A stretch of DNA of 64,000 bases, from contig MKSR01000019.1 of NCBI GenBank assembly GCA_001898145.1, positions 372,001 through 436,000 of the forward strand, written 5' to 3'. This stretch comes from Dyadobacter sp. 50-39. Its GTDB lineage: Bacteria; Bacteroidota; Bacteroidia; Cytophagales; Spirosomataceae. Shown one piece after another: positions 7,634 through 35,076 of this stretch (the stretch's first letter is position 1; each line of letters begins with the position of its first letter). Position numbers and translations under genes: made by a program. The notes under the pieces were generated by a model. That model did not search any database, was not told the DNA's origin, and was given only the letters and a program-made list of their open reading frames with translations.

Positions 7634-9109
7634 TCAGTATCTGTTCATAATTACCTGGGTGTGAGTCTCCAACTGAAAATTGATTGGTAAGTTATATTTA
7701 ACCCGCACTTTCTGCCCTCGCAGCACGCCAGGCTCCCACTTGCCGTTCATTAATTTAACCACCCGCAGCGCCTCTTCGTCGATACCATAACCTACCCGGT
7801 TCTCCACTTTGTACTCGCACATCGACCCATCTTCGCAAACCACAAACGACAGCATCACTCGTCCGGCGACACCTCTGCTGGCTGCATCGGGCGGGTAACG
7901 CATATTCATCCCGAGAAATTTATAGAATTCTTTCATTCCTCCTTTGAATTCAGGCTGGATCTGAGGTTTTTCATAAGACATTTTTGTTCCATTCACCCAC
8001 GAAACGCCCGATTTGAACTGGCCCAAATCATATGTTTCCTCATAATACAATGTACTGTCGGCCAGCTTTCCAATCCACTTCCCGTCCTTAATCCCTTCTG
8101 TAACCTTGCCTTGTTCGAAGAGCCATTTACCATTCGGCGTTTCTCCGGCAGCCATCCAGTAACCTTCCCCGTTTTTCGCAGATTGCGTACCATCCGGCCC
8201 CCATGCATTCATTAAGAGCGGTTCTTCTTTTACCCCCATTTTGTTGACGGGAAAATCCCGGTGCGCCCTGATTTGCCCGTTGGAGTCCCAGGAAACGTCG
8301 GTCACCAGCGAATCGGTCAGCAATTGTTGCCGCCTTACCATGCCATTCAGGTCATAATCCTTGATCACAGATGCTTTGCCATCCACGCCATATTCGACAT
8401 AGGACAGCATGCGTCCCTCGGAATCGAATGTTGCTTCGGTTGCATGGCTGGCTTCATTGTAGTCGCGTGCGGCAATGCGGTAAGCAGGTATCGAGTCTGT
8501 ACCCGGATTCACGAAGGGCGATTTGTAGCGGACCGGAGTTTTGGCAAATTTGGCCGCGCCCAGCTTTTTCCATTTTTTACCTTTTGATTCCTCATAAGTT
8601 ACATCACCTGCCACGAACCCAAGCTCATCAATCGGTGTCGTCCGCCGGTATTTCGCATGCAATGAATCTACCGGAACGAACGAATCATTAAAAAAGTCGA
8701 CAAATGCATGGCTCGCCGCATTGTAGGTGGGTTTCGCCTCGGCTTTGAATGTCACCGGAAAAAAGACCGCCTGCCGCACCTGTTGGCCTCCCAGCATGGC
8801 CGGTTTCCAGGCTTTGTACATTCCGAGCACACGCATGGCAGCCGCATTACATAATGTGTCAATGCCGCGCGTCACTTCGATATTGCTCATACTGCCATCC
8901 GGCTGTACCACACCTTTGAGATAAACCCGCGCATTTACGCCTTTTACTGAGTTTGGAAGCGGGATCTGGAGATTTGAGCTGATAAACTGGTTGAGTACTG
9001 TCAGCCCGCCGGCCGGCTCCGCCTGTTTCTCCACCTCGTGAGGCAAATACACTTGCTGAGCGAATGTCTGCACAGCTGAAAACAACAGTAGAGTGAGTAG
9101 TTTCTTCAT
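7634..9109 (-). CDS. TonB-family protein with two TonB C-terminal domains
   Basis: 491 residues with a signal peptide (MKKLLTLLLFSAVQTFAQ). A TonB_C-like domain occurs near the N-terminus (about 45-125, with GVVQPDGSMSNIEVTRGID and AWKPAMLGGQQV) and a second at the C-terminus (about 405-485, with YPPDAASRGVAGRVMLSFVV and WEPGVLRGQKVRVKYNLPI). Between them are YwqK/MORN-like segments such as GTQSAKNGEGYWMAAGETPN and FDSEGRMLSYVEYG. It lacks the classic N-terminal membrane anchor and Pro-rich spacer of a true TonB, so it may act in the periplasm rather than as an energy transducer. Monocistronic, with its own terminator. Confidence 0.82.
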   Translation of the reverse strand: MKKLLTLLLFSAVQTFAQQVYLPHEVEKQAEPAGGLTVLNQFISSNLQIPLPNSVKGVNARVYLKGVVQPDGSMSNIEVTRGIDTLCNAAAMRVLGMYKAWKPAMLGGQQVRQAVFFPVTFKAEAKPTYNAASHAFVDFFNDSFVPVDSLHAKYRRTTPIDELGFVAGDVTYEESKGKKWKKLGAAKFAKTPVRYKSPFVNPGTDSIPAYRIAARDYNEASHATEATFDSEGRMLSYVEYGVDGKASVIKDYDLNGMVRRQQLLTDSLVTDVSWDSNGQIRAHRDFPVNKMGVKEEPLLMNAWGPDGTQSAKNGEGYWMAAGETPNGKWLFEQGKVTEGIKDGKWIGKLADSTLYYEETYDLGQFKSGVSWVNGTKMSYEKPQIQPEFKGGMKEFYKFLGMNMRYPPDAASRGVAGRVMLSFVVCEDGSMCEYKVENRVGYGIDEEALRVVKLMNGKWEPGVLRGQKVRVKYNLPINFQLETHTQVIMNRY

Positions 9110-19402: not shown

Positions 19403-20557
19403 TTAAACTGCTTCCGCTGTCTTAACCAGTTCAACCAGATCTCCGTCGTTTACTTCCTTCTTCACATCGGCTACTTCCAGGAAGCGCGTGTAAAGCTCAT
19501 CCAATACGGGTTTTTCGAAGGAGAAGCCCAGCAATTCCAGGCGATGCTTCAATGCGTGGCGTCCGCTGCGGGCCGTCAGAACAATATCCGATTTATCCAC
19601 GCCCACATCCTGCGGGTTCATGATTTCGTAATTCAGGTTGTTTTTCAGGAAGCCGTCCTGGTGAATACCCGACGAATGCGCGAATGCATTCCGGCCCACG
19701 ATCGCCTTGTTCGCCTGCACAGGCATGCGCATCATTTTCGACACCAACTGACTGGTCGGGTAAATGTGCTGGGTATTAATGCCCGTTTCAAGGCCCAATT
19801 CCTGATGCACTTTCAATGCCATTACCACTTCTTCCAGCGATGTGTTACCGGCGCGCTCGCCGATACCATTGATCGTCACCTCCACCTGGCGTGCGCCGGC
19901 ATTGATACCCGCTATGGAGTTGGCAGTGGCCAAACCGAGGTCATTGTGGCAGTGGATGGAGATAGTAGCCTTATGGATGTTCGAAACGTGTTCGAAAATG
20001 TATTTGATTTTGTTGCCGTATTCGTCCGGCAGGCAGTATCCTGTTGTGTCAGGAATATTTACCACCGTGGCGCCAGCGCCGATCACTGCTTCTACCAGTT
20101 GTGAAAGGAAAACGAGGTCCGCACGGCCTGCATCTTCGCAATAAAACTCCACATCCTCTACTTTACTTTTAGCATATTTCGTAGCCGCAATCGCTCTTTC
20201 GATGATTTTTTCACGGGTGGTATTGAATTTATGCTGGATGTGTATGTCGGAAGAACCGATTCCTGTATGAATACGTGCCCGGTTGGCATATTGCAACGCC
20301 TCCGCTGCTGCATCAATATCGCCTTGCACGGCACGTGAAAGCGCACAAATGATCGGCTCGCGTACCGCTTTGGAGATTTCTACCACAGAACGGAAATCTC
20401 CGGGACTTGAAACCGGGAAACCGGCTTCGATAATATCTACCCCCAGTTTTTCGAGTTGTGTAGCAACCACGATTTTTTCTTCTGTGGTCAATTGGCTGCC
20501 AGGAACCTGCTCGCCGTCTCGTAAAGTAGTGTCGAAGATCTGAACTCGATTACTCAT
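19403..20557 (-). CDS. leuA: 2-isopropylmalate synthase, short form without regulatory domain
   Basis: 384 residues. It condenses acetyl-CoA and 2-oxoisovalerate, the committed step to leucine. The catalytic barrel is intact: [16 protein letters not shown] at the N-terminus, the metal motif [11 protein letters not shown] (about 205) and [18 protein letters not shown]. It stops after the linker helices and lacks the C-terminal leucine-binding domain (usual full length about 510), so feedback inhibition by that route is not expected. Control may rest on the leader attenuator directly upstream (20612-20721). It is the last gene of the leucine cluster. Confidence 0.93.
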
Positions 20558-20611
20558 TGGTGGGTATTAATTTTTTTATGGGACACGAATTTAACAATAT
20601 TTCAGGCAATA

Positions 20612-20708
20612 TAAAACCCTTTCCTTGTCACGGGAAAGGGTCTGTAACTTATCAAAACATAACCTTTCCCGCCTCACGGTAGTTGTTGGAGATTGAGAAT
20701 GAGGTTAT
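20612..20708 (-). promoter_or_regulatory. Leucine attenuator (leader RNA with alternative hairpins)
   Basis: On the minus strand four segments are visible. Segment 1 ATAACCT (20708-20702, inside the leader peptide) pairs with segment 2 AGGTTAT (20665-20659). Segment 2 CGGGAAAGG (20671-20663) pairs perfectly with segment 3 CCTTTCCCG (20639-20631) as antiterminator. Segment 3 ACCCTTTCC (20641-20633) pairs with segment 4 GGAAAGGGT (20624-20616), followed by TTTTATATT, as terminator. Ribosome stalling at the Leu codons of the leader would free segment 2 and allow leuA transcription. Confidence 0.85.
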
Positions 20709-20721
20709 CTTGTTGGCTCAT
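20674..20721 (-). CDS. leuL: Leucine leader peptide
   Basis: A 15-codon reading frame, MSQQDNLILNLQQLP, with four Leu codons (CTC, CTC, CTC, CTA) and one Ile, ending in TGA two bases before the antiterminator strand. It lies 117 bases upstream of leuA, 41 bases after a plausible promoter, and overlaps the first pairing segment of the attenuator. Size, composition and position match known amino-acid leader peptides. It acts through its translation, not as a protein. Confidence 0.82.
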   Translation of the reverse strand: MSQQDNLILNLQQLP

Positions 20722-20730
20722 ATCTTAGTT

Positions 20731-20742
20731 GCGAAATTTCGC
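20731..20742. promoter_or_regulatory. Palindrome GCGAAATTTCGC upstream of the leucine leader
   Basis: A perfect 12-base palindrome, 9 bases before the leader ATG and 19 bases after the predicted -7 element. The same palindrome, preceded by the same CA on the minus strand, lies at 35065-35076 at the identical distance from the ilv promoter. A dimeric regulator binding just after the transcription start is a reasonable guess; a short RNA stem is also possible. Confidence 0.65.
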
Positions 20743-20761
20743 TGGCTGCGATTTTCTTCTG

Positions 20762-20792
20762 CAAAGAAAGCACAAGTTTTGAATGCAACAAA
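20762..20792 (-). promoter_or_regulatory. Promoter of the leader-leuA transcript
   Basis: On the minus strand TTTG (20792-20789), 19 bases, then TTTCTTTG (20769-20762), matching the Bacteroidota -33 TTTG and -7 TAnnTTTG elements with one mismatch. Start of transcription would be near 20755, about 35 bases before the leader peptide. It lies in the gap between leuB and leuA, giving leuA its own control. Confidence 0.6.
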
Positions 20793-20819
20793 TATTGTTT
20801 GGCAAAACTTTGAAATTTT

Positions 20820-21893
20820 TTAGATTCTTTTCAAAAGCTCCTCACCGGCCTGCTGCGTGTTCAGGATCTTGTCAGCAGGAGTGGTTACATCGGCGATGTC
20901 ACGAGTCCTGAAACCATCTTTTAGCAACTTGTCAACGGCCGAAATAATCGCTTCCGATTCCTCTTTCAGGCCAAATGAAATATCGAGGAGCAATGCAGCC
21001 GAAAGCACTGATGCCAAGGGATTTGCAACGCCTTTGCCTGTAATGTCGTGCGCCGAGCCGTGGATCGGTTCGTAAACGCCCGTGCTGTCTCCGACAGACG
21101 CCGAAGCGAGCATTCCCATCGATCCGGCGATCTGGCTAGCTTCGTCCGTAAGAATATCTCCGAACAAATTGGCGGTCACCACCACGTCGAAACGCTTAGG
21201 ATCTTTGATGAGCATCATCGCCGCTGCATCGACGAATTGATGCTCCACTGTTACATCAGGATATTCAGGAGCCAACGCCTGAACTACTTCACGCCACAGA
21301 CGGCTGGTTTCAAGTACGTTTGCCTTATCCACCGAGCAGAGGCGCTTACCGCGTGTACGAGCCGCTTCAAATGCCTTGCGGGCAATGCGCTCCACTTCGT
21401 AACGGCTGTATTCGGCAATATCGAAAGCGGTATTATTGTCATTTTTGCGGCCTTTCTCTCCGAAATAAATGTCGCCTGTCAGTTCACGGAAGAAAAGAAT
21501 ATCCGAGCCTTTCAGGATTTCAGGACGAATGGAAGAAGCCCCCAGCAGCTCGTCGAACAATTTGATCGGACGAAGGTTGGCATACAAACCCAGTTCTTTG
21601 CGCATTTTCAGCAAGCCTTGCTCGGGGCGAACTTTGGCAGTCGGGTCGTTATCATATTTCGGGTGACCAACGGCGCCGAAAAGGATCGCATCGGAATTAC
21701 GCATTTTTTCCAACGTCTCGTCCGGAAGCGGGTTGCCCGTTGCTTCGATGGCCACATGGCCCATCAATGCCTCGTCGTAAGTGAACTCATGACCGAATTT
21801 CTCGGCGATTTTCACCAACACTGCCTTTCCTACCTCTGTAACTTCTTGTCCGATTCCGTCGCCCGGAACGATAAGGATATGCTTTTTCATCAA
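20820..21893 (-). CDS. leuB: 3-isopropylmalate dehydrogenase
   Basis: 357 residues, cytosolic. It oxidises and decarboxylates 3-isopropylmalate with NAD. Family motifs are LIVPGDGIGQEVTEVG at the N-terminus, RPEQGLLKMRKELGLYANLRP, the substrate-binding RELTGDIYFGEKG (about 135-150), and the C-terminal GVYEPIHGSAHDITGKGVANP with the NAD-binding loop. The start is either of two adjacent ATGs. It lies between the citramalate/isopropylmalate synthase gene and leuA, on the same strand. Confidence 0.96.
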   Translation of the reverse strand: MMKKHILIVPGDGIGQEVTEVGKAVLVKIAEKFGHEFTYDEALMGHVAIEATGNPLPDETLEKMRNSDAILFGAVGHPKYDNDPTAKVRPEQGLLKMRKELGLYANLRPIKLFDELLGASSIRPEILKGSDILFFRELTGDIYFGEKGRKNDNNTAFDIAEYSRYEVERIARKAFEAARTRGKRLCSVDKANVLETSRLWREVVQALAPEYPDVTVEHQFVDAAAMMLIKDPKRFDVVVTANLFGDILTDEASQIAGSMGMLASASVGDSTGVYEPIHGSAHDITGKGVANPLASVLSAALLLDISFGLKEESEAIISAVDKLLKDGFRTRDIADVTTPADKILNTQQAGEELLKRI

Positions 21894-26090: not shown

Positions 26091-26121
26091 TTTGATTAAA
26101 ATTAGAATTTCGCCTCGTCGT

Positions 26122-26178
26122 TCAGGCTTCAAAGAAAGAGCTGATAATCAACGCCTTTCTCAGAAGGATAACCGACAT
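26122..26178 (-). CDS. Possible upstream leader ORF of leuC
   Basis: An 18-codon frame, [18 protein letters not shown], rich in Val, Ile and Leu codons, ending 31 bases before leuC. By analogy with the two clear leaders in this window it may sense branched-chain amino acids. Unlike them, no good terminator follows (only a 4-bp GCCT/AGGC stem without a strong U-run), and a promoter is not clear. It could also be chance. Confidence 0.3.
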
Positions 26179-26831: not shown

Positions 26832-27680
26832 TTACCCTTGCCGCTTAGGCGTCGTCCCGTATTTCTCTTTGTAAGTCTTTATAAAATGCGAAACGCTTTC
26901 GTAGCCGATTTCCGTACTAATCTCCGAAACGTTCTTCGTACTATTCCTCAAAAGGAAATCCGCATAATCCAGCCGCTTGTTTTTCAGCCATAATGCCGGT
27001 GAAGTGTTGAACTCATCCTGAAAATCCCTTTTGAATGCCGATAGCGAGCGGCCGGAAAGTCGCGCCAGCTCATTTAACGTCAGCGGTTTCAGATAGTAGC
27101 TGTTCATCAAAAACGAAAGATCGACCTTTTCACCTTTATACAAGCTGTATAAAATACCCCGCAGCTGACTGGAATTATCCAGCTCCATCAAATGCAGGAG
27201 CAGTTCCTGGAATTTCAACCGGAGGAAATGATTCTTCAACTCCGTTCGTGATCGGAAGTAGGGGAAAACGGATTGGATGAATTTCTCAAAATTATCATCC
27301 GACTTCAAAAGCAAAATGGGGTATTCGACCGCTTCCGCATCTTTTTGCGCGTCGAAAAGCTCGGGATGCAAGCCAACGAACTCTTTCAATAGTTTTTCGT
27401 CAAAGAAGAAAACCAGACTTTTGTAAGCCTCATGAATGGATTCCGACATCAGGTAGAATCCCCGCTGAATAAACAGAATATCCCCTTTTTCCACATGCAC
27501 CTCCTGCGTCGGGCTGGTAAATTTCTTCTCCCCTTCCAGCACTACAATCACCGCATGCTCTTCGAAAAACACGTCGTATTTGGAAGGATATACCTCGTTC
27601 CGATAGGCCACGAAGGTCATATCCTGAATTTTTAGGGACTCAAATTCCTGGGAGCTGATGTCGGACGGTACGCGGAGCAT
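26832..27680 (-). CDS. AraC-family transcriptional regulator
   Basis: 282 residues. The N-terminal half (about 1-160) looks like a cupin sensor domain (VVLEGEKKFTSPTQEVHVEK, GDILFIQRGFYLM). The C-terminal AraC domain has two helix-turn-helices: LNELARLSGRSLSAFKRDFQ and VSEISTEIGYESVSHFIKTY, followed by KEKYGTTPKRQG. Its ligand and targets are unknown. It sits between two toxin-antitoxin modules, all on the same strand. Confidence 0.9.
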   Translation of the reverse strand: MLRVPSDISSQEFESLKIQDMTFVAYRNEVYPSKYDVFFEEHAVIVVLEGEKKFTSPTQEVHVEKGDILFIQRGFYLMSESIHEAYKSLVFFFDEKLLKEFVGLHPELFDAQKDAEAVEYPILLLKSDDNFEKFIQSVFPYFRSRTELKNHFLRLKFQELLLHLMELDNSSQLRGILYSLYKGEKVDLSFLMNSYYLKPLTLNELARLSGRSLSAFKRDFQDEFNTSPALWLKNKRLDYADFLLRNSTKNVSEISTEIGYESVSHFIKTYKEKYGTTPKRQG

Positions 27681-27694
27681 GATAAATAAGAGAG

Positions 27695-28036
27695 CTACTG
27701 CTCTCTTTCGATAATAAGAGAAATCCAGATGCGGTTGAACGGGACTTCATTTTTGATCGCGTCCCACAAGATTTGATAATCGATTCCCCAGTAGTGATGG
27801 ATCATTCTGTCTCGCAGTCCGGCAAAACCTTTCCAATCGAACAAGGGATATTTCGTTCGGATCTCGTCCGGGATGCGTTTGCAAGCCTCACCGATGATCT
27901 CAAAACTTCTGACGATGGCTTTTGATAATGTTTCGTCACCGACAAAGTCGTCATAATCCAGATTGGCAGTTTTGTCCTCAACATAGCGCAATTCGGATTC
28001 GATGTGCCGCAGAAAGTCAATCAGCAAAGGAGACAT
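27695..28036 (-). CDS. HepT-type ribonuclease/toxin
   Basis: 113 residues, helical, of the HepT (DUF86) family. The catalytic RX4HXY motif is visible as RDRMIHHY (about 91-98). HepT acts as the toxin of HepT/MntA modules, where the partner nucleotidyltransferase silences it by adding AMP to the motif's Tyr. It overlaps the MntA gene by 20 bases. Complete, with no sign of decay. Confidence 0.88.
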   Translation of the reverse strand: MSPLLIDFLRHIESELRYVEDKTANLDYDDFVGDETLSKAIVRSFEIIGEACKRIPDEIRTKYPLFDWKGFAGLRDRMIHHYWGIDYQILWDAIKNEVPFNRIWISLIIEREQ

Positions 28037-28325
28037 ATTCGATTTCTTCTTTCACATTTCGCTGAACAAAAGATGCGAGAGATTCCCACGTAACCAGCTC
28101 TACTTTACGGTTTAGCAGGGCTTCCAGGTATTCCGCCAGATTCAGATAGTTACGAAATGTCTTTTTTCCCTCTTCAAATTCTACAACGATGTCTACATCG
28201 CTGCCCTCCTTCTGTTCGCCACGGACGAAAGAGCCAAAAATTCCAAGCCGCTCCGCACCGAAGCGCTGGATGGAGGATTGGTGACTCTTTATAATGTCGT
28301 GAACTTCTTGCTTATCCTGTACCAT
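28017..28325 (-). CDS. MntA-type nucleotidyltransferase antitoxin
   Basis: 102 residues. The minimal nucleotidyltransferase motif GSX10DXD is intact (GSFVRGEQKEGSDVD, about 32-46), with a third Asp/Glu position in DIVVEFEEGK. In HepT/MntA modules this enzyme AMPylates the toxin. It is first in the pair and overlaps hepT by 20 bases. Confidence 0.88.
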   Translation of the reverse strand: MVQDKQEVHDIIKSHQSSIQRFGAERLGIFGSFVRGEQKEGSDVDIVVEFEEGKKTFRNYLNLAEYLEALLNRKVELVTWESLASFVQRNVKEEIEYVSFAD

Positions 28326-28397: not shown

Positions 28398-29654
28398 CTA
28401 AACCATAAACTGAAACAAATCCGGCTGGTCATTCAGATACTCATAAACTACCCGATTAGCATCCATCCGCTCGATGAGCGGTGCAAAATCTTCCCGGCTT
28501 TTCAATTCAATACCGACCAATGCAGGGCCCTGTTCGCGGTTGGTCTTCTTCACATACTCGAAACGCGCGATGTCGTCGTTCGGGCCGAGGACATTTAGAA
28601 ACTCCCGGAATGCGCCGGAGCGCTGCGGGAAGCGGATAATGAAGTAATGTTTTAAGCCTTCATAGAGGAGTGAGCGCTCTTTGATTTCTTCGGTGCGGGT
28701 AATGTCGTTATTGCCGCCGCTGATCAGCACGACCACGTTTTTACCCTTAATGTCTTCCTTGATCAAATCCAATGCAGCGACGGTCAATGCGCCCGCAGGC
28801 TCGGCGACAATGGCTTCTTCATTATATAACTGCAAGATCGAAGAACATACTTTGCCTTCTGGTACGAGCAGGATTTGATTTAAACTTTTGCTGCAAATGT
28901 CGAAAGTAATGTCGCCAGCGCGCTTCACAGCCGCGCCGTCTACGAACTTGTCAATGTTATCCAACGTCACCACATGCCCTTCCTGAATGGATTTATGCAT
29001 GGTAGGCGAGCCTTCCGGTTCTACGCCTATGAGCTGGGTTTTGGGGGAAAGTTGTTTAAAAACGGTGGAAATGCCCGACGCTAATCCGCCGCCTCCAATG
29101 GCCATCAGCAAGTAATCTATTTTGAAATCGGCATCTTTAAAGATTTCCAGACCCACGGTTCCCTGGCCTTCGATCACCTGCAAATCATCGAATGGGTGCA
29201 CAAAAACGGCGTTCGTACTGTCGCGGTAAGCCATCGAAGCGTGGTAAGCATCATCATAAGTGTCGCCAACCAAATGGATTTCAATCCATTCCTGACCGAA
29301 CAGCCTTACCTGCTTCACTTTCTGCGCCGGCGTGGTGGTTGGCATGAAAATCGCCCCTTTTACCTGCATTTTCCGGCACGCGTACGCTACGCCCTGCGCG
29401 TGGTTGCCCGCGCTCGCACACACAACCCCGCCTGCGAGGGCTTCGGGCGTGAGGCTGGCCATTTTGTTGTAGGCTCCGCGGATTTTGTAGGAACGGACCG
29501 TCTGCAAATCTTCCCGTTTGAGGTAAATATTGGCCCCATACTGCTCAGAAAGATGTGCATTAAAGAATATTGGTGTGTGGTTAATGACCCCGCGCAGGCG
29601 TTCGGCAGCGAGGAAGATGTTATCGAGAGTCGGAAGTTGATGGGCAGTGCTCAT
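28398..29654 (-). CDS. ilvA: Threonine ammonia-lyase (threonine deaminase)
   Basis: 418 residues. PLP enzyme that makes 2-oxobutyrate from threonine for isoleucine. The PLP Lys is in VRSYKIRGAYNKMAS (about 53), phosphate loop in AIGGGGLASGIS (about 185). The C-terminal part (about 330-418) is one ACT-like regulatory domain (HYFIIRFPQRSGAFREFLNV). The ORF could extend 14 codons upstream, but those codons lie within a hairpin (29670-29692), and the family begins at MSTAHQLPTL. It is last in the ilvDBNCA order, 100 bases after ilvC. Confidence 0.95.
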   Translation of the reverse strand: MSTAHQLPTLDNIFLAAERLRGVINHTPIFFNAHLSEQYGANIYLKREDLQTVRSYKIRGAYNKMASLTPEALAGGVVCASAGNHAQGVAYACRKMQVKGAIFMPTTTPAQKVKQVRLFGQEWIEIHLVGDTYDDAYHASMAYRDSTNAVFVHPFDDLQVIEGQGTVGLEIFKDADFKIDYLLMAIGGGGLASGISTVFKQLSPKTQLIGVEPEGSPTMHKSIQEGHVVTLDNIDKFVDGAAVKRAGDITFDICSKSLNQILLVPEGKVCSSILQLYNEEAIVAEPAGALTVAALDLIKEDIKGKNVVVLISGGNNDITRTEEIKERSLLYEGLKHYFIIRFPQRSGAFREFLNVLGPNDDIARFEYVKKTNREQGPALVGIELKSREDFAPLIERMDANRVVYEYLNDQPDLFQFMV

Positions 29655-29669
29655 AGCAATCAATGAAAA

Positions 29670-29730
29670 GAGCTTTGCAAAACAGCAAAGCTCCATTTTC
29701 TATCTTATTGCCGTTGACTTAAGTCAACGG
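29670..29730 (-). promoter_or_regulatory. Two hairpins in the ilvC-ilvA gap
   Basis: On the minus strand GAGCTTTGC, six-base loop, GCAAAGCTC (29692-29670) is followed by TTTTC, resembling a weak terminator just before ilvA. Upstream is the perfect 20-base palindrome CCGTTGACTTAAGTCAACGG (29711-29730), related to the palindromes at 56592-56691. They may reduce ilvA expression relative to ilvC, or end part of the transcripts. Confidence 0.55.
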
Positions 29731-29753
29731 CAAAGGGTTATTTTTTGAAACAA

Positions 29754-30800
29754 TTAGTTTCTTTCTGGGCGAAGGCCGCGAACAGTTGAACCCGCCTGCC
29801 ACATTTCTGATTCGCGCAATTCTGCCAGTTCTTCTTCCAGCTTCACGCGGTAGTCAGGTTGTGAGTTGCGGGTGATTGAGATAGTAGCTTGCTCGCCTGA
29901 TTTTACAGAGTTGTAAAGCTGCTCGAAAACAGGCTTGGTAGCGTCACGGAAAGGCTTCCACCAGTCCAAAGCACCGCGCTGGGCAGTTGTAGAGCAGTTA
30001 GCGTACATCCAGTCCATACCGTTTTCAGCTACTAATGGCATCAGCGATTGAGTAAGCTCTTCAACAGTTTCGTTGAACGCTTCTGACGGCGTGTGGCCGT
30101 TTGAACGCAGCACTTCATATTGTGCAGCGAAAATACCCTGGATAGCACCCATCAAAGTACCACGCTCGCCGGTAAGGTCAGACGTTACTTCGCGGTAGAA
30201 ATCAGTTTCGAACAGGTAACCTGAACCTACACCGATACCCATTGCGATACATTTCTCACGCGCTTTGCCAGTAGCATCCTGGAATACCGCGAAAGAAGAG
30301 TTCAAGCCTTTTCCTTCTACGAACAGGCGGCGCAGTGAAGTTCCCGATCCTTTTGGAGCAACGAGGTACACGTCCACGTCAGCAGGAGGAACAATGCCAG
30401 TCTGATCTTTATAAGTAACACCGAAACCGTGTGAGAAATACAGTGATTTACCAGCAGTAAGGTGTTTTTTAACAGTCGGCCAAAGTTCGATCTGAGCAGC
30501 GTCAGAAAGCAAGTAGCAAATGATGGTTCCTTTTGCAAGCGCCTCTTCGATGTCGAAAAGGGTTTCGCCTGGCACCCATCCGTCAGCAACGGCTTTGTCC
30601 CAAGACTTACCACCTTTACGCTGACCAACGATTACATTGAAACCGTTGTCACGCATGTTCAAGCTTTGGCCTGGGCCTTGTACGCCGTAACCAATTACAG
30701 CGATAGTTTCAGTAGAAAGTACTTCACGTGCTTTTTCAAGTGGAAATTCTTCACGGGTTACTACTTCTTCTTCGACCCCGCCGAAATTTAATTTTGCCAT
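29754..30800 (-). CDS. ilvC: Ketol-acid reductoisomerase
   Basis: 348 residues. Converts acetolactate and acetohydroxybutyrate to dihydroxy acids with NADPH and Mg. The nucleotide motif is IAVIGYGVQGPGQSLNMRDNG (about 33-53, quoted in part), with the cofactor loop QRKGGKSWDKA; metal-binding residues are in the FETDFYREVTSDLTGERG stretch (about 195-215). Length fits the short class. It follows ilvN in the operon after a 64-base gap. Confidence 0.96.
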   Translation of the reverse strand: MAKLNFGGVEEEVVTREEFPLEKAREVLSTETIAVIGYGVQGPGQSLNMRDNGFNVIVGQRKGGKSWDKAVADGWVPGETLFDIEEALAKGTIICYLLSDAAQIELWPTVKKHLTAGKSLYFSHGFGVTYKDQTGIVPPADVDVYLVAPKGSGTSLRRLFVEGKGLNSSFAVFQDATGKAREKCIAMGIGVGSGYLFETDFYREVTSDLTGERGTLMGAIQGIFAAQYEVLRSNGHTPSEAFNETVEELTQSLMPLVAENGMDWMYANCSTTAQRGALDWWKPFRDATKPVFEQLYNSVKSGEQATISITRNSQPDYRVKLEEELAELRESEMWQAGSTVRGLRPERN

Positions 30801-30864
30801 TGATTATTGATTGGATTATTGATTTACTACGAATTAAAAAGCAATACTACTAAAAGTTGACCGA

Positions 30865-31398
30865 CTATTGGTAATACTCCCACTCAGCTTCCGGCAGATA
30901 ATCTACCAGTGTCTGAGGCGATTTGCTCACCGCCACACGCCCCGAGCGAACGAATTCAAGGATTTCGTGCGGTTTGATATAGTCGAAAAATTCAAAGATC
31001 TCTTCTTCGGTACCGGTCTTCTGGATGATCACATAGGTGAGGTGCCAGTATACGACCCAAGCCTTGTAAGTCTTGTTAATCGTCTCGATATCGAGCGGTT
31101 TGGCGCCGATCGGCGTCGAAACTTTGAACAATGCGATCTCATTGTACGCGATGTCCTCATTGAGATACCCGAAAACGGCGAGTACTTCGATGATCTTACG
31201 GATCTGGCGGACCAGCTTCTCCACCGCATCGCGCGACTCATGACGGATGACGATCGTGAAGCGGGAAATACCCTTACGCTCAGTTTCCGAAACGGTTAAG
31301 CTTTCGATATTGATCCGTCTCCGCGTAAAGATGGTCGTGATCTTGTTAAGAATGCCGATCGTGTTCTCGGTGAAAACACAAATGGTGTATGATGTCAT
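30865..31398 (-). CDS. ilvN: Acetolactate synthase small (regulatory) subunit
   Basis: 177 residues. An ACT domain (YTICVFTENTIGILNKITTI, then RRRINIESLTVSETERKGIS) followed by the C-terminal ALS small-subunit domain (YIKPHEILEFVRSGRVAVSK). It confers valine feedback on the large subunit. It starts 20 bases after ilvB, as expected for a complex partner. Confidence 0.94.
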   Translation of the reverse strand: MTSYTICVFTENTIGILNKITTIFTRRRINIESLTVSETERKGISRFTIVIRHESRDAVEKLVRQIRKIIEVLAVFGYLNEDIAYNEIALFKVSTPIGAKPLDIETINKTYKAWVVYWHLTYVIIQKTGTEEEIFEFFDYIKPHEILEFVRSGRVAVSKSPQTLVDYLPEAEWEYYQ

Positions 31399-31417
31399 GA
31401 TTTCTTCCTCTTTTATA

Positions 31418-33178
31418 TTATTCCAAACGGATATCGGCTACGCAGGCACCCGTTGGCACCATCGGGAACACGTTTTCTTCTTTCTCTACCAATACTTCCA
31501 GCAGGTAAGGCTTGTCGGAAGCCAGCATGGTGTCCAGCGACGCATGCAAATCCTCCCGTTTCGCGCAGGTATGGCCATTAATACCAAAACCTTTGGCAAT
31601 GGTGATGAAATCAGGATTTTGCAGCTCCACGAACGAATATCGTTTCTGATGGAAAAGCTGCTGCCACTGACGTACCATCCCGAGGAAGTTGTTGTTCAGA
31701 ATGATAATTTTCACGGGCAGACCGCTTTGCGCAATGGTACCGAGCTCCTGAATGGTCATCTGGAAACAACCGTCGCCGATCATGGCTACCACTTCACGGT
31801 CCGGCGCACCCACTTTCGCCCCGAATGAGGCCGGCAATGCATAACCCATTGTTCCAAGGCCGCCCGAAGTAATGAAAGAGCTTGGCTTTTTGAACTGGTA
31901 ATAACGGGCAGTCATCATCTGGTGCTGACCAACGTCCGCCACGATCACCGCTTCGCCTTTGGTTTTATCCGAAAGCGTACGGATCACTTCCGCCATTTTG
32001 ATTTTCTCCGTAGTTGGAGCAAGTTCCGGCTGCGTGATTTTCTCGTCTTCGATCAAATCGTACTTCTTGAATTCCGCTTTCCATGCTTCGTGATTGTTCT
32101 CATTCACCAATGGAAGCAGCATTTCCAATGCAATTTTGGCATCGCCTACTACCGGCGCATCCGCTTTCACGATCTTGTCGATCTCCGCTGGATCAATTTC
32201 AATGTGAACCACTTTCGCCTGTTTCGCATAACGGCTCAAATCGCCGGTTACGCGGTCGTCGAAACGCATTCCGACGGCGATAATGAGGTCGCATTGGTTC
32301 GTCAGAACATTGGTACCGTAGTTCCCGTGCATTCCCAGCCAGCCCATATAGTTAGGATGGTCGACTGACATCGAAGAAAGGCCCAGCAATGTAGAAGCCG
32401 CAGGAATATCCGTTTTTTCAATGAATTTGATCAACTCCTGCTCCGCGCCGGCGATTTGCACGCCGTGGCCAACGAACAGGAACGGGCGTTTCGCCTGGTT
32501 GATCAGCTTTGCAGCCGCAGCCAGTTGCTCTTCTTTCGGCGACAGGCGCGGATGGTAGCTCAGCAACTTCTCCGTCTTTTTATGTACGAAAGGCTTCGTC
32601 ATCAGCTTCTGCTGCGCATCCTTCGTGATATCGATCAAAACAGGTCCCGGACGGCCTGATTTGGCTATATAAAATGCTTTTGCAATGATTTCAGGGATCT
32701 CATCCGCATTGGTGATCTGGTAGTTCCATTTCGTAATCGGAATGGTGATCCCCATTACATCCGTTTCCTGGAACGCATCGGTACCGAGCAAATGCGAAGC
32801 TACCTGACCGATAATGCACACCATCGGCGTAGAATCGATGATCGCGTCGGCAATACCGGTGACCAGGTTGGTTGCTCCCGGACCTGAGGTAACAAGGCAA
32901 ACGCCTACCTCACCCGTAATGCGCGCAAAACCTTCCGCTGCGTGCGCAGCACCCTGCTCGTGGCGCACGAGAATGTGGTTGACCTGATCCTGATAGTCAT
33001 AGATCGCATCATAAACCGGCATAATCGCACCGCCCGGATAGCCGAAAATGGTTTTCACCCCTTCCGCAATCAGCGACTGGATCACCGCATGCGAGCCATT
33101 AATCAGCTCCGGCTTCGCTACCGAAACCACCGGCTCCGAGCCCTGAATTGTTGCAGTTTGATTTTCATTAAATCCCAT
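31418..33178 (-). CDS. ilvB: Acetolactate synthase large (catalytic) subunit
   Basis: 586 residues, TPP-dependent. The catalytic Glu is in VRHEQGAAHAAEGFAR (about 72), the FAD/structural middle domain spans about 215-355, and the TPP-Mg motif GDGCFQMTIQELGTIAQSGL ends in IIILNNNF (about 465-495). It forms acetolactate or acetohydroxybutyrate, the first shared step of Ile/Val synthesis. It sits between ilvD and ilvN. Confidence 0.96.
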   Translation of the reverse strand: MGFNENQTATIQGSEPVVSVAKPELINGSHAVIQSLIAEGVKTIFGYPGGAIMPVYDAIYDYQDQVNHILVRHEQGAAHAAEGFARITGEVGVCLVTSGPGATNLVTGIADAIIDSTPMVCIIGQVASHLLGTDAFQETDVMGITIPITKWNYQITNADEIPEIIAKAFYIAKSGRPGPVLIDITKDAQQKLMTKPFVHKKTEKLLSYHPRLSPKEEQLAAAAKLINQAKRPFLFVGHGVQIAGAEQELIKFIEKTDIPAASTLLGLSSMSVDHPNYMGWLGMHGNYGTNVLTNQCDLIIAVGMRFDDRVTGDLSRYAKQAKVVHIEIDPAEIDKIVKADAPVVGDAKIALEMLLPLVNENNHEAWKAEFKKYDLIEDEKITQPELAPTTEKIKMAEVIRTLSDKTKGEAVIVADVGQHQMMTARYYQFKKPSSFITSGGLGTMGYALPASFGAKVGAPDREVVAMIGDGCFQMTIQELGTIAQSGLPVKIIILNNNFLGMVRQWQQLFHQKRYSFVELQNPDFITIAKGFGINGHTCAKREDLHASLDTMLASDKPYLLEVLVEKEENVFPMVPTGACVADIRLE

Positions 33179-33224
33179 GACTTTCTATTATTTAGTCGGA
33201 TGAATTCCTTTCCTTAATCTTCAC

Positions 33225-34910
33225 TTACGCTTCGTCCGTCACGCAGCCTTCGCTGGCCGACTTCACGGTTCTGATATATCTTCCCAGCATACCTTTTGTA
33301 AACTTTGGTGCGGGTTGTACCCAGGCTGCTTTGCGGGCCGCCATTTCTTCGTCCGAAATGTCCAGGGTCAGTACGCGGGTGTTGGCGTCGATACTGATGC
33401 GGTCGCCATCTTTGACGAGGGCAATCGGGCCGCCGTCGAATGCTTCCGGGGTAATGTGGCCTACTACGAAACCGTGTGTACCGCCTGAGAAACGACCGTC
33501 GGTGATCAATGCGATCTTGTCGCCCAATCCTGCTCCCATTACGGCAGAGGTTGGTTTCAGCATTTCCGACATACCCGGACCGCCTTTCGGACCTGCATTA
33601 CGGATTACGACCACATGACCCGCCTTGATTTCACCTTTGGCAAGCATATCGATGATCTCCGATTCGTGCTCGCACACTTTCGCTTCGCCGTCGAACGTCA
33701 GACCTTCTTTTCCGGTGATCTTCGCAACCGCGCCCTCAGGAGCCAGGTTACCGTAAAGCACCTGAATGTGGCCTGTCTTTTTGATAGGCGTTTCGATCGG
33801 GAACACCATTTTCTGTGTTTCAAAATTCAGATCAGGAGCCTCCGCGAGGTTTTCAGCAACCGTTTTACCGGTTACGGTAATGCAATCGCCATGGATCAAA
33901 CCTACCGAATACAAATATTTGGTAACGGCCGGAACACCACCGATTTCGAGGATATCCTCCATGAAATATTTACCGCTAGGCTTCAAATCCGCGATGAATG
34001 GTGTGCGGTCTGAAATCGCCTGAATGTCATCCAATGTCAACGGAATGCCTGCCGCGCGGGCAATCGCCAGGTAGTGCAATGCCGCATTGGTAGAACCACC
34101 CAGCGCCATGACCACCGTCAATGCATTTTCGAGCGACTTTTTAGTGATAATGTCTTTCGGCGTAATGTTCAGTTCGAGCAGATTCTTCATGGCTGCACCG
34201 ATTTTCTTGCACTCTTCCTGCTTGCCTTCGTGCGTAGCCGGGTAAGAGCTGCTGAATGGCAGGCTCAATCCCATTGCCTCTATAGACGACGCCATTGTGT
34301 TAGCAGTATACATCCCACCGCAAGCGCCCTGTCCAGGAATTGAATTTTGAATTACACCTTTATAATCTTCGTCAGAAATGTTGTTCGCGAACTTCTTACC
34401 CAGCGCTTCGAATGCCGAAACGATGTCCAGTTTCTGTCCTTTATAATGTCCTGAACGGATCGTTCCGCCGTACACCATAATAGCTGGACGGTCGAGACGC
34501 GCCATCGCCATAATGGCTCCCGGCATGTTCTTATCGCAACCCACCACTGCAATCACACCGTCGTACCATTGCGCAGCCACAACCGTTTCAATGGAATCGG
34601 CGATAATGTCACGGCTGGGGAGCGAGTAGCGCATTCCGTCGTTACCGTTGGTCATACCATCCGAAACACCGATCGTGTTGAAGATGAGGCCGACCATGTC
34701 GTTCGCAGTCACGCCCTGCTTCACGTACACCGACAGACCGTTCAGGTGCATATTGCAAGGGTTACCTTCATAACCTGTGCTGGCAATCCCGATCTGGGGT
34801 TTCACAAAGTCTTCTTCTTTCAAGCCAATCCCGTAAAGCATTGCTTGCGCAGCTGGATTGGTCACTTCCTGGGTAAGGGTCTTCGAAAATCTGTTTAATT
34901 CTGTCGCCAT
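33225..34910 (-). CDS. ilvD: Dihydroxy-acid dehydratase
   Basis: 561 residues with an Fe-S cluster. Cluster cysteines occur in [17 protein letters not shown] (about 121) and [15 protein letters not shown] (about 193), and a further one near EGNPCNMHL (about 48). It makes the 2-oxo acids for Val and Ile. An upstream in-frame ATG at 34946 lies inside the terminator hairpin of the attenuator, so the start is set at [12 protein letters not shown]. It is the first structural gene of ilvDBNCA and is preceded by a leader-peptide attenuator. Confidence 0.96.
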
Positions 34911-34933
34911 TGGTGAATGATTGTATTTAAAAT

Positions 34934-35005
34934 AAAAACACCCCACTCGTTTGGGTGAGTGAGGTGCCAGTTATATGCTATCATCCCACTCACGCTATTG
35001 CGTGA
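34934..35005 (-). promoter_or_regulatory. Isoleucine/valine/leucine attenuator (leader RNA)
   Basis: On the minus strand TCACGC-AATA-GCGTGA forms the 1:2 hairpin (35005-34990) over the end of the leader peptide. GTGAGTG (34993-34987) pairs with CACTCAC (34961-34955) as antiterminator. CACCTCACTC (34966-34957) pairs with GAGTGGGGTG (34948-34939, one G-T pair), followed by TTTTT, as terminator. The last two pairings exclude each other. Stalling at Leu, Ile or Val codons of the leader would favour read-through into ilvD. Confidence 0.87.
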
Positions 35006-35042
35006 CGATAAGTAGGACCGGGACGATAAGAGTCAGTTTCAT
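34995..35042 (-). CDS. ilvL: ilv leader peptide
   Basis: A 15-codon frame, MKLTLIVPVLLIVTQ, containing four Leu, two Ile and three Val, which is 9 of 15 residues that the operon makes. It ends in TAG within the loop of the first attenuator hairpin, 84 bases before ilvD. Composition and position are those of classical ilv leader peptides. It works by its translation only. Confidence 0.87.
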   Translation of the reverse strand: MKLTLIVPVLLIVTQ

Positions 35043-35064
35043 TTTAGCGGAACATTTAAGTCTA

Positions 35065-35076
35065 GCGAAATTTCGC
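35065..35076. promoter_or_regulatory. Palindrome GCGAAATTTCGC upstream of the ilv leader
   Basis: Identical to the element at 20731-20742, extended here to AGCGAAATTTCGCT (35064-35077). It lies 19 bases after the predicted -7 element and 22 bases before the leader ATG. Shared position in both branched-chain leaders suggests a common regulator. Confidence 0.65.

Follow-up and report, generated by a model that had tools for sequence, protein, structure and literature searches.

A probable leucine leader-peptide attenuator and a conserved palindrome upstream of leuA in Dyadobacter and other Spirosomataceae

In Dyadobacter sp. 50-39, leuA lies at the end of a minus-strand gene order of leuC, leuD, a CimA-like gene, leuB and leuA. 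Within the window, that is, the whole 64,000-nt stretch of DNA analysed, an attenuator-like element occupies positions 20613-20720 of the minus strand in the leuB-leuA gap, with leuB directly upstream and leuA directly downstream. The LeuA encoded here shares 98-99% identity with its counterparts in several named Dyadobacter records (family Spirosomataceae). An initial annotation had proposed a leucine leader-peptide attenuator before leuA, and the comparative data support this proposal: the element is very probably a classical ribosome-mediated transcription attenuator, through which leucyl-tRNA supply would set leuA transcription, behind a putative promoter of its own and a probable operator. 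The features of the locus are as follows.

20820..21893, minus strand: leuB, the neighbour upstream of leuA
20789..20792, minus strand: putative -33 promoter element TTTG, a role in keeping with Bacteroidota promoters
20762..20769, minus strand: putative -7 element TTTCTTTG, one mismatch to the consensus TAnnTTTG
20731..20742, no strand assigned: perfect palindrome GCGAAATTTCGC, a predicted operator at about +16 to +27 of the predicted transcript
20673..20720, minus strand: leader peptide gene MSQQDNLILNLQQLP, 15 codons, ATG at 20720 and TGA ending at 20673
20662..20670, minus strand: segment 2, the antiterminator 5' arm CGGGAAAGG
20631..20639, minus strand: antiterminator 3' arm CCTTTCCCG, overlapping the terminator 5' arm
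20616..20641, minus strand: terminator hairpin, ACCCTTTCC (20633-20641), 8-nt loop, GGAAAGGGT (20616-20624)
20613..20616, minus strand: terminator T tract TTTTATATT, short
19403..20557, minus strand: leuA, 2-isopropylmalate synthase without the LeuA_dimer domain, ATG at 20557

Direct reading confirms that the leader carries four Leu codons (CTC, CTC, CTC, CTA) and one Ile, and the annotated competition between a 9-bp antiterminator and a 9-bp terminator is likewise present in the sequence, the two helices sharing the arm at 20633-20639. A predicted intrinsic terminator with a short T tract thus lies between leader and gene, its end about 56 nt short of the leuA ATG; the candidate antiterminator is mutually exclusive with it. 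A consensus terminator scan did not list this hairpin; on the same strand it also found nothing terminator-like from the leuB stop to the palindrome, so that transcripts running from leuC to leuB would also traverse the attenuator. No match at gathering score to Leu_leader or T-box was obtained from Rfam in the window, and a search down to E 5 within 20500-20850 returned one unrelated weak match only, which argues against a known riboswitch or T-box.

From these parts we infer stalling, termination and read-through in the familiar order. When leucine is plentiful, the ribosome would reach the leader stop and cover segment 2, so that segments 3 and 4 would form the terminator and leuA would be off. 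When leucyl-tRNA is short, the ribosome would stall at Leu codons about 4-7 codons before the stop, covering segment 1 only; segment 2 would then take segment 3 as its partner while segment 4 is still to be transcribed, and the polymerase would enter leuA.

The conservation of this arrangement was examined in 80 named loci that were fetched, among which 55 leuA loci (L034-L088) form the related set. A Leu-rich leader followed by a terminator is kept before leuA in 50 of these 55 loci, and 49 of the 50 kept leaders contain at least three Leu (L065 has two). The peptides themselves have diverged between relatives and are still leucine-rich, as in MTHDQNINLLLLSIP, MKPIAQNLILLLLITS and MIFHYQTLRSLLLARTP. 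Against 300 shuffles of the spacer, the best antiterminator helix ranks above 95% or more of them in 46 of the 50 loci, in a run that took a wrong short frame as leader in L037, L051 and L053; weak antiterminators occur in four loci (L044, L048, L054 and L088). The five exceptions are of different kinds. Dyadobacter arcticus (L049, about 8840-9000) lacks the palindrome and the leader start and keeps the terminator, which is a natural deletion of the former two; in L080, L083 and L086 leuB ends, by alignment, 18-61 nt before leuA; and L081 has the palindrome without a leader. An apparent TAA inside leuA of five genomes was dropped as a candidate feature, being the gene end in both cases inspected (L080 = G063 and L086 = G065).

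The leucine signal was assessed on two sets of leaders. A filtered set of 53 distinct leaders, from 44 of the 50 loci and nine other fetched loci, holds 225 Leu among 808 codons against 64.7 expected; the other two frames hold 73 and 43 of 861. Because this set was partly picked with Leu or Leu/Ile/Val filters and is hence partly circular, the count was redone by position only, taking the first ATG after the palindrome with no amino-acid filter. Of 51 loci, 48 have a leader with at least three Leu when it is chosen in this way, the remaining three being L065 (two Leu), L072 (a 5-residue frame) and L081 (where the first ATG is that of leuA). Across the 46 distinct position-only frames, Leu accounts for 185 of 692 codons against 55.4 expected, Val is depleted (9 against 50.0) and Ile stands at 75 against 53.5, the expectations for these frames being taken from ten branched-chain amino-acid (BCAA) proteins and any p values being overstated by the kinship of the leaders. 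The candidate leader frame is thus rich in codons of the amino acid made by the pathway. The position of the codons is also constrained: in the filtered leaders, Leu stands at codons 7, 6, 5 and 4 before the stop in 77, 70, 57 and 43%. CTA makes up 35 of the 225 leader Leu codons in the 53-leader set against 4 of 322 in ten genes, and CTG plus TTG are avoided (38 of 225 against 198 of 322 in genes); the preference for CTC and CTT may serve partly for pairing with segment 2. The position-only leaders are in addition enriched in Asn (100 against 29.8 expected, about 3-fold) and Gln (50 against 23.4, about 2-fold), which perhaps keeps the start of the RNA unstructured.

The comparative check on pairing that the initial annotation had suggested came out in part. 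In an alignment of 45 of the 50 loci (L035, L038, L040, L062 and L087 were omitted as near-identical to others), 85.6% of antiterminator cells are paired and 29 cells are changed on both sides, values reached by none of 500 shuffles in either case, and slid antiterminator partners score lower on both measures. Two other measures of covariation do not exceed the shuffles, namely the number of pairs with a two-sided change (3; 211/500) and the number of pair types (13; 397/500). The two outermost antiterminator pairs break in more than half of the sequences, and one inner pair holds 13 of the 29 changed cells (A-U 21, G-C 13, G-U 10). For the terminator, 97.8% of cells are paired and T follows in the 45 aligned loci, whose windows had, however, been cut at a TTTT. 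In a duplex-energy test against shuffles, the antiterminator falls at or below 5% in 32 of 45 loci and the protector helix between leader and segment 2 in 9 of 45; the protector helix is present in the window's own fold. That fold, for the full leader, combines the leader:segment 2 helix with the terminator (z -1.72; 16 of 200 shuffles as good), and the fold from 20690 on, with most of the leader gone, flips to the antiterminator (z -2.10; 8 of 200). Such single-sequence statistics are modest, and the case therefore rests on comparison with relatives.

Folding at two stages of transcription distinguishes between kinds of switch. In the finished RNA of the 45 relatives, the minimum-energy structure has the terminator in 41 loci with the full leader and in 35 with the leader masked; the terminator is thus favoured once the RNA is complete, a result that speaks against a thermodynamic switch and makes the model dependent on kinetic control. 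In nascent RNA that still lacks segment 4, a masked leader leads to the antiterminator in 45/45 (570/900 with shuffled spacers), masking through the stop plus 10 nt, as for a ribosome at the stop, gives it in 5/45, and it forms in 26/45 already without any masking. Within the limits of such modelling, this behaviour fits classical, kinetically controlled attenuation.

The initial annotation also held that leuA is controlled separately from the genes before it, and this reading gains from a conserved promoter-like element between leuB and the leader as well as from 13 of 51 loci for which a search of the 800 nt before leuA found no leuB (of one of these, L070, only 386 nt of upstream sequence is available). 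For the putative -33 element, the nearest TTG at 16-24 nt stands 19 nt (35 loci) or 16 nt (15 loci) before the -7 8-mer in the 50 loci where a -7 element could be placed, a spacing counted with no random control. The -7 consensus TAnnTTTG and its position at -12 to -5 are those given for Flavobacterium psychrophilum in the accessible part of PMC9723704; if the box is placed likewise here, the transcript is predicted to start near 20757. Of the 51 leuA loci with the palindrome, 50 have a TTTG 19 nt (46 loci) or 18 nt (4 loci) ahead of it; random positions have one at that spacing in 39 of 2750 cases.

The palindrome between promoter and leader had been missed in the initial annotation. The sequence GCGAAWWTTCGC occurs at three places in the 7.7-Mb genome itself: before leuA, before ilvD and on another contig. 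All 48 genus genomes searched contain the palindrome, 35 of them exactly twice; as a reversed control pattern turns up 0-4 times in each genome, the count alone is not above chance, and it is the location that is non-random. Among 32 palindrome loci (L114-L145), leuA accounts for 14 and ilvD for 13, and the remaining 5 lie at neither gene. Across the family, TTTG-N19-palindrome is found at 58 places in 47 of 121 genomes and 18 of 36 genera, with none for the reversed control. The 30 places with a locus returned, one per genome, lie upstream of leuA (16) or ilvD (14). In 29 of them the gene start, by extrapolation, is no more than about 195 nt away; in L227 the gene is 799 nt away, measured to the first aligned residue. 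Nine of the 30 (L216, L218-L225) have no leader behind the palindrome, the next ATG being either the gene start or one that begins no leader-like frame. A candidate second dyad with the sequence GCGTAATTACGC or a similar one lies 5 bp before the palindrome in several genera, with centres 17 bp apart (L206, L218, L221, L230, L231 and others).

This fixed place relative to the putative promoters of functionally related genes suggests that the palindrome is probably an operator, and one that would act independently of the attenuator. Since it lies inside the predicted transcript, a role as RNA is possible; as an RNA hairpin it folds only weakly. Occurrences outside the family were read as chance and set aside, since 21 of 22 order-level loci (L236-L257), each of 3 kb, are free of BCAA genes and in the remaining one (L246) the site falls inside a leuA match, a reading that covers the 22 loci returned rather than every outside-family place matched. 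Lrp/AsnC was likewise rejected as the operator protein: none of the six paralogues in the genome itself tracks operator presence among seven operator-bearing and five operator-lacking genomes, 12 of the 24 other genomes searched.

The second copy of the palindrome in the window marks a related arrangement before the ilv operon.

35065..35076, no strand assigned: second palindrome copy, also 19 nt after a TTTG
34995..35042, minus strand: ilv leader peptide gene MKLTLIVPVLLIVTQ
34938..34966, minus strand: ilv terminator hairpin, overlapping a possible antiterminator arm, fold z -4.31
33225..34946, minus strand: ilvD, first gene of ilvD-ilvB-ilvN-ilvC-ilvA (28398-34946)

This element (34938-35076) is probably what the initial annotation had counted as its first attenuator. 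The ilv leaders of the window and eight others contain 24 L, 24 I and 21 V among 135 residues, differing strongly in Val content from the leuA leaders, and the two attenuators therefore appear, from their codon content, to read different amino acids. Such a division would be understandable if leuC, leuD and leuB were shared with a citramalate route and leuA worked for leucine alone. The CimA-like gene has a Leptospira citramalate synthase model as its best match, at a score below the curated cut-off, and the presence of ilvA in the ilv operon counts against the certainty of this idea. Leaders are found at 8 of the 14 ilvD palindrome places in the family, the other 6 having none. In one Dyadobacter genome (L216) the gene begins about 50 nt after the ilvD palindrome with no leader, unlike in other Dyadobacter; by sequence comparison, this member of the genus has lost its ilv attenuator.

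Taken together, these observations incline us, at somewhat better than even confidence, to a Spirosomataceae BCAA regulon in which a regulator would bind the palindrome just past the transcription start at leuA and ilvD, with separate, losable attenuators stacked upon it, one for Leu at leuA and one for Ile/Leu/Val at ilv. The palindrome would then be a roadblock-type operator, in several genera apparently formed by two dyads 17 bp apart.

Other features were seen around the two clusters. A HepT-like and nucleotidyltransferase gene pair, toxin-antitoxin-like, lies at 27695-28325 between the leu and ilv clusters and is adjoined by an AraC-family gene (26832-27680). About 20 nt before the leuC start, a half-palindrome-like sequence, GGCGAAATT(TT)AAT, is present in many Dyadobacter loci (several of L034-L059), at about 26100-26115 in the window. 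A candidate leader upstream of leuC (frame 26122-26178) was dropped, the frame being found in six close relatives only (L034, L037-L040, L082) and absent from the other Dyadobacter loci compared.

Several other explanations of the leuA element were weighed. It seems improbable that the leader is translated and control is exerted other than by stalling, for example by the palindrome and its protein, with the hairpin merely ending the leuC-leuD-cimA-leuB transcript. The palindrome does occur without a leader at some leuA or ilvD genes (L216, L218-L225, L081) and is thus kept independently of the attenuator, and a precedent exists in Streptomyces, whose leuA leader with Leu codons, when mutated, is reported not to have behaved as classical attenuation (PMC1262725); Leu codons in front of leuA are thus no proof of attenuation. 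However, a plain terminator needs no fixed distance from Leu codons to stop, no Val depletion and no competing antiterminator, and the set of leader and terminator persists in the 13 loci described above in which no leuB was found within 800 nt.

A control of translation, in which leader or hairpin would set ribosome access to the leuA start, is very unlikely: leader genes near the next start have been proposed to affect downstream translation, as stated in the accessible text of PMC4833913, but the terminator ends upstream of the leuA ATG, at the distance given above, and is followed by T in the aligned loci, subject to the same cut at a TTTT. The folds described above for the window cover the leader region as far as the hairpin or nearly so. 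As for a chance Leu-containing short frame near a terminator, the modest fold statistics of the single sequence would be in keeping with it, yet the element is kept in 50 of 55 loci although the peptides have diverged, which contradicts it and makes it scarcely credible; judged by this comparison, the candidate attenuator is more than a product of chance. Ribosome-mediated attenuation by leucyl-tRNA supply is accordingly the reading retained for leuA.

Whether such attenuation stands in for allosteric control is a separate matter. As the initial annotation had stated, the usual feedback domain is missing: a domain search of the 384-aa LeuA finds no LeuA_dimer (PF08502), which is present in the adjoining CimA-like protein. 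The further suggestion that attenuation may replace allosteric control gains no support. In 54 leuA loci of 53 non-Dyadobacter genomes, the attenuator shows no association with LeuA frame length, being adjacent in 11 of 45 short-frame leuA and in 1 of 9 with a frame of at least 500 aa (Fisher p 0.67), and a Bacteroidetes MAG (L095, 9001-10500 and upstream) has both a Leu leader, MKYTSRLLNLNFALLLLAA, and a LeuA that keeps PF08502. A different leader, NLIIIIRLR-V-GSD, stands before leuA in 8 of 12 Prevotella-type or Bacteroidales loci (L094, L097, L099, L102, L104, L106, L108, L110), and part of its coding sequence looks like an antiterminator arm (CGGAAGTGA, which would pair with TCACTTCCG). 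Marinigracilibium and Mangrovivirga (L103 and L113; about 8800-9000) have a similar block before leuA, where a filtered frame search gave no leader.

No description of the attenuator or the palindrome was found in the open literature, as far as its accessible text extends; subscription work, including a 2010 comparative survey (via PMC4833913), may cover part of it. Descriptions of how Bacteroidota control their amino-acid genes seem to be few. The locus provides a precise candidate for leucine attenuation, of which relatives carry many natural variants and, in L049, a natural deletion. The palindrome, in turn, points to an operator, and hence a regulator, of branched-chain amino-acid synthesis.

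The mechanism proposed here is the textbook one. It resembles leuL of E. coli and Salmonella (Rfam Leu_leader), which has a leader with Leu codons, rare ones among them, mutually exclusive antiterminator and terminator helices, and leuA downstream; unlike leuL, the present element has no Rfam match, serves a leuA that appears to be its own unit inside the cluster and is preceded by a conserved palindrome. The Bacteroid-trp motif RF01692, a trp leader, is likewise a cis RNA motif from Bacteroidetes, but it is unmatched in the window and here the pathway is that of leucine. That motif is named in a table of PMC2864571. Leader-peptide attenuation has been proposed for amino-acid operons of F. psychrophilum (PMC9723704), and short leader-like frames occur in 5' UTRs of Bacteroides thetaiotaomicron (PMC7366714); these cases share the phylum and the proposed mechanism and belong to other families, and the accessible portions of the two papers name no leuA leader or operator. 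The LEU element upstream of actinobacterial leuA is likewise a leader with a run of Leu codons, described as a pseudoknot in the accessible part of PMC1262725, whereas in Dyadobacter a terminator and a competing antiterminator are present.
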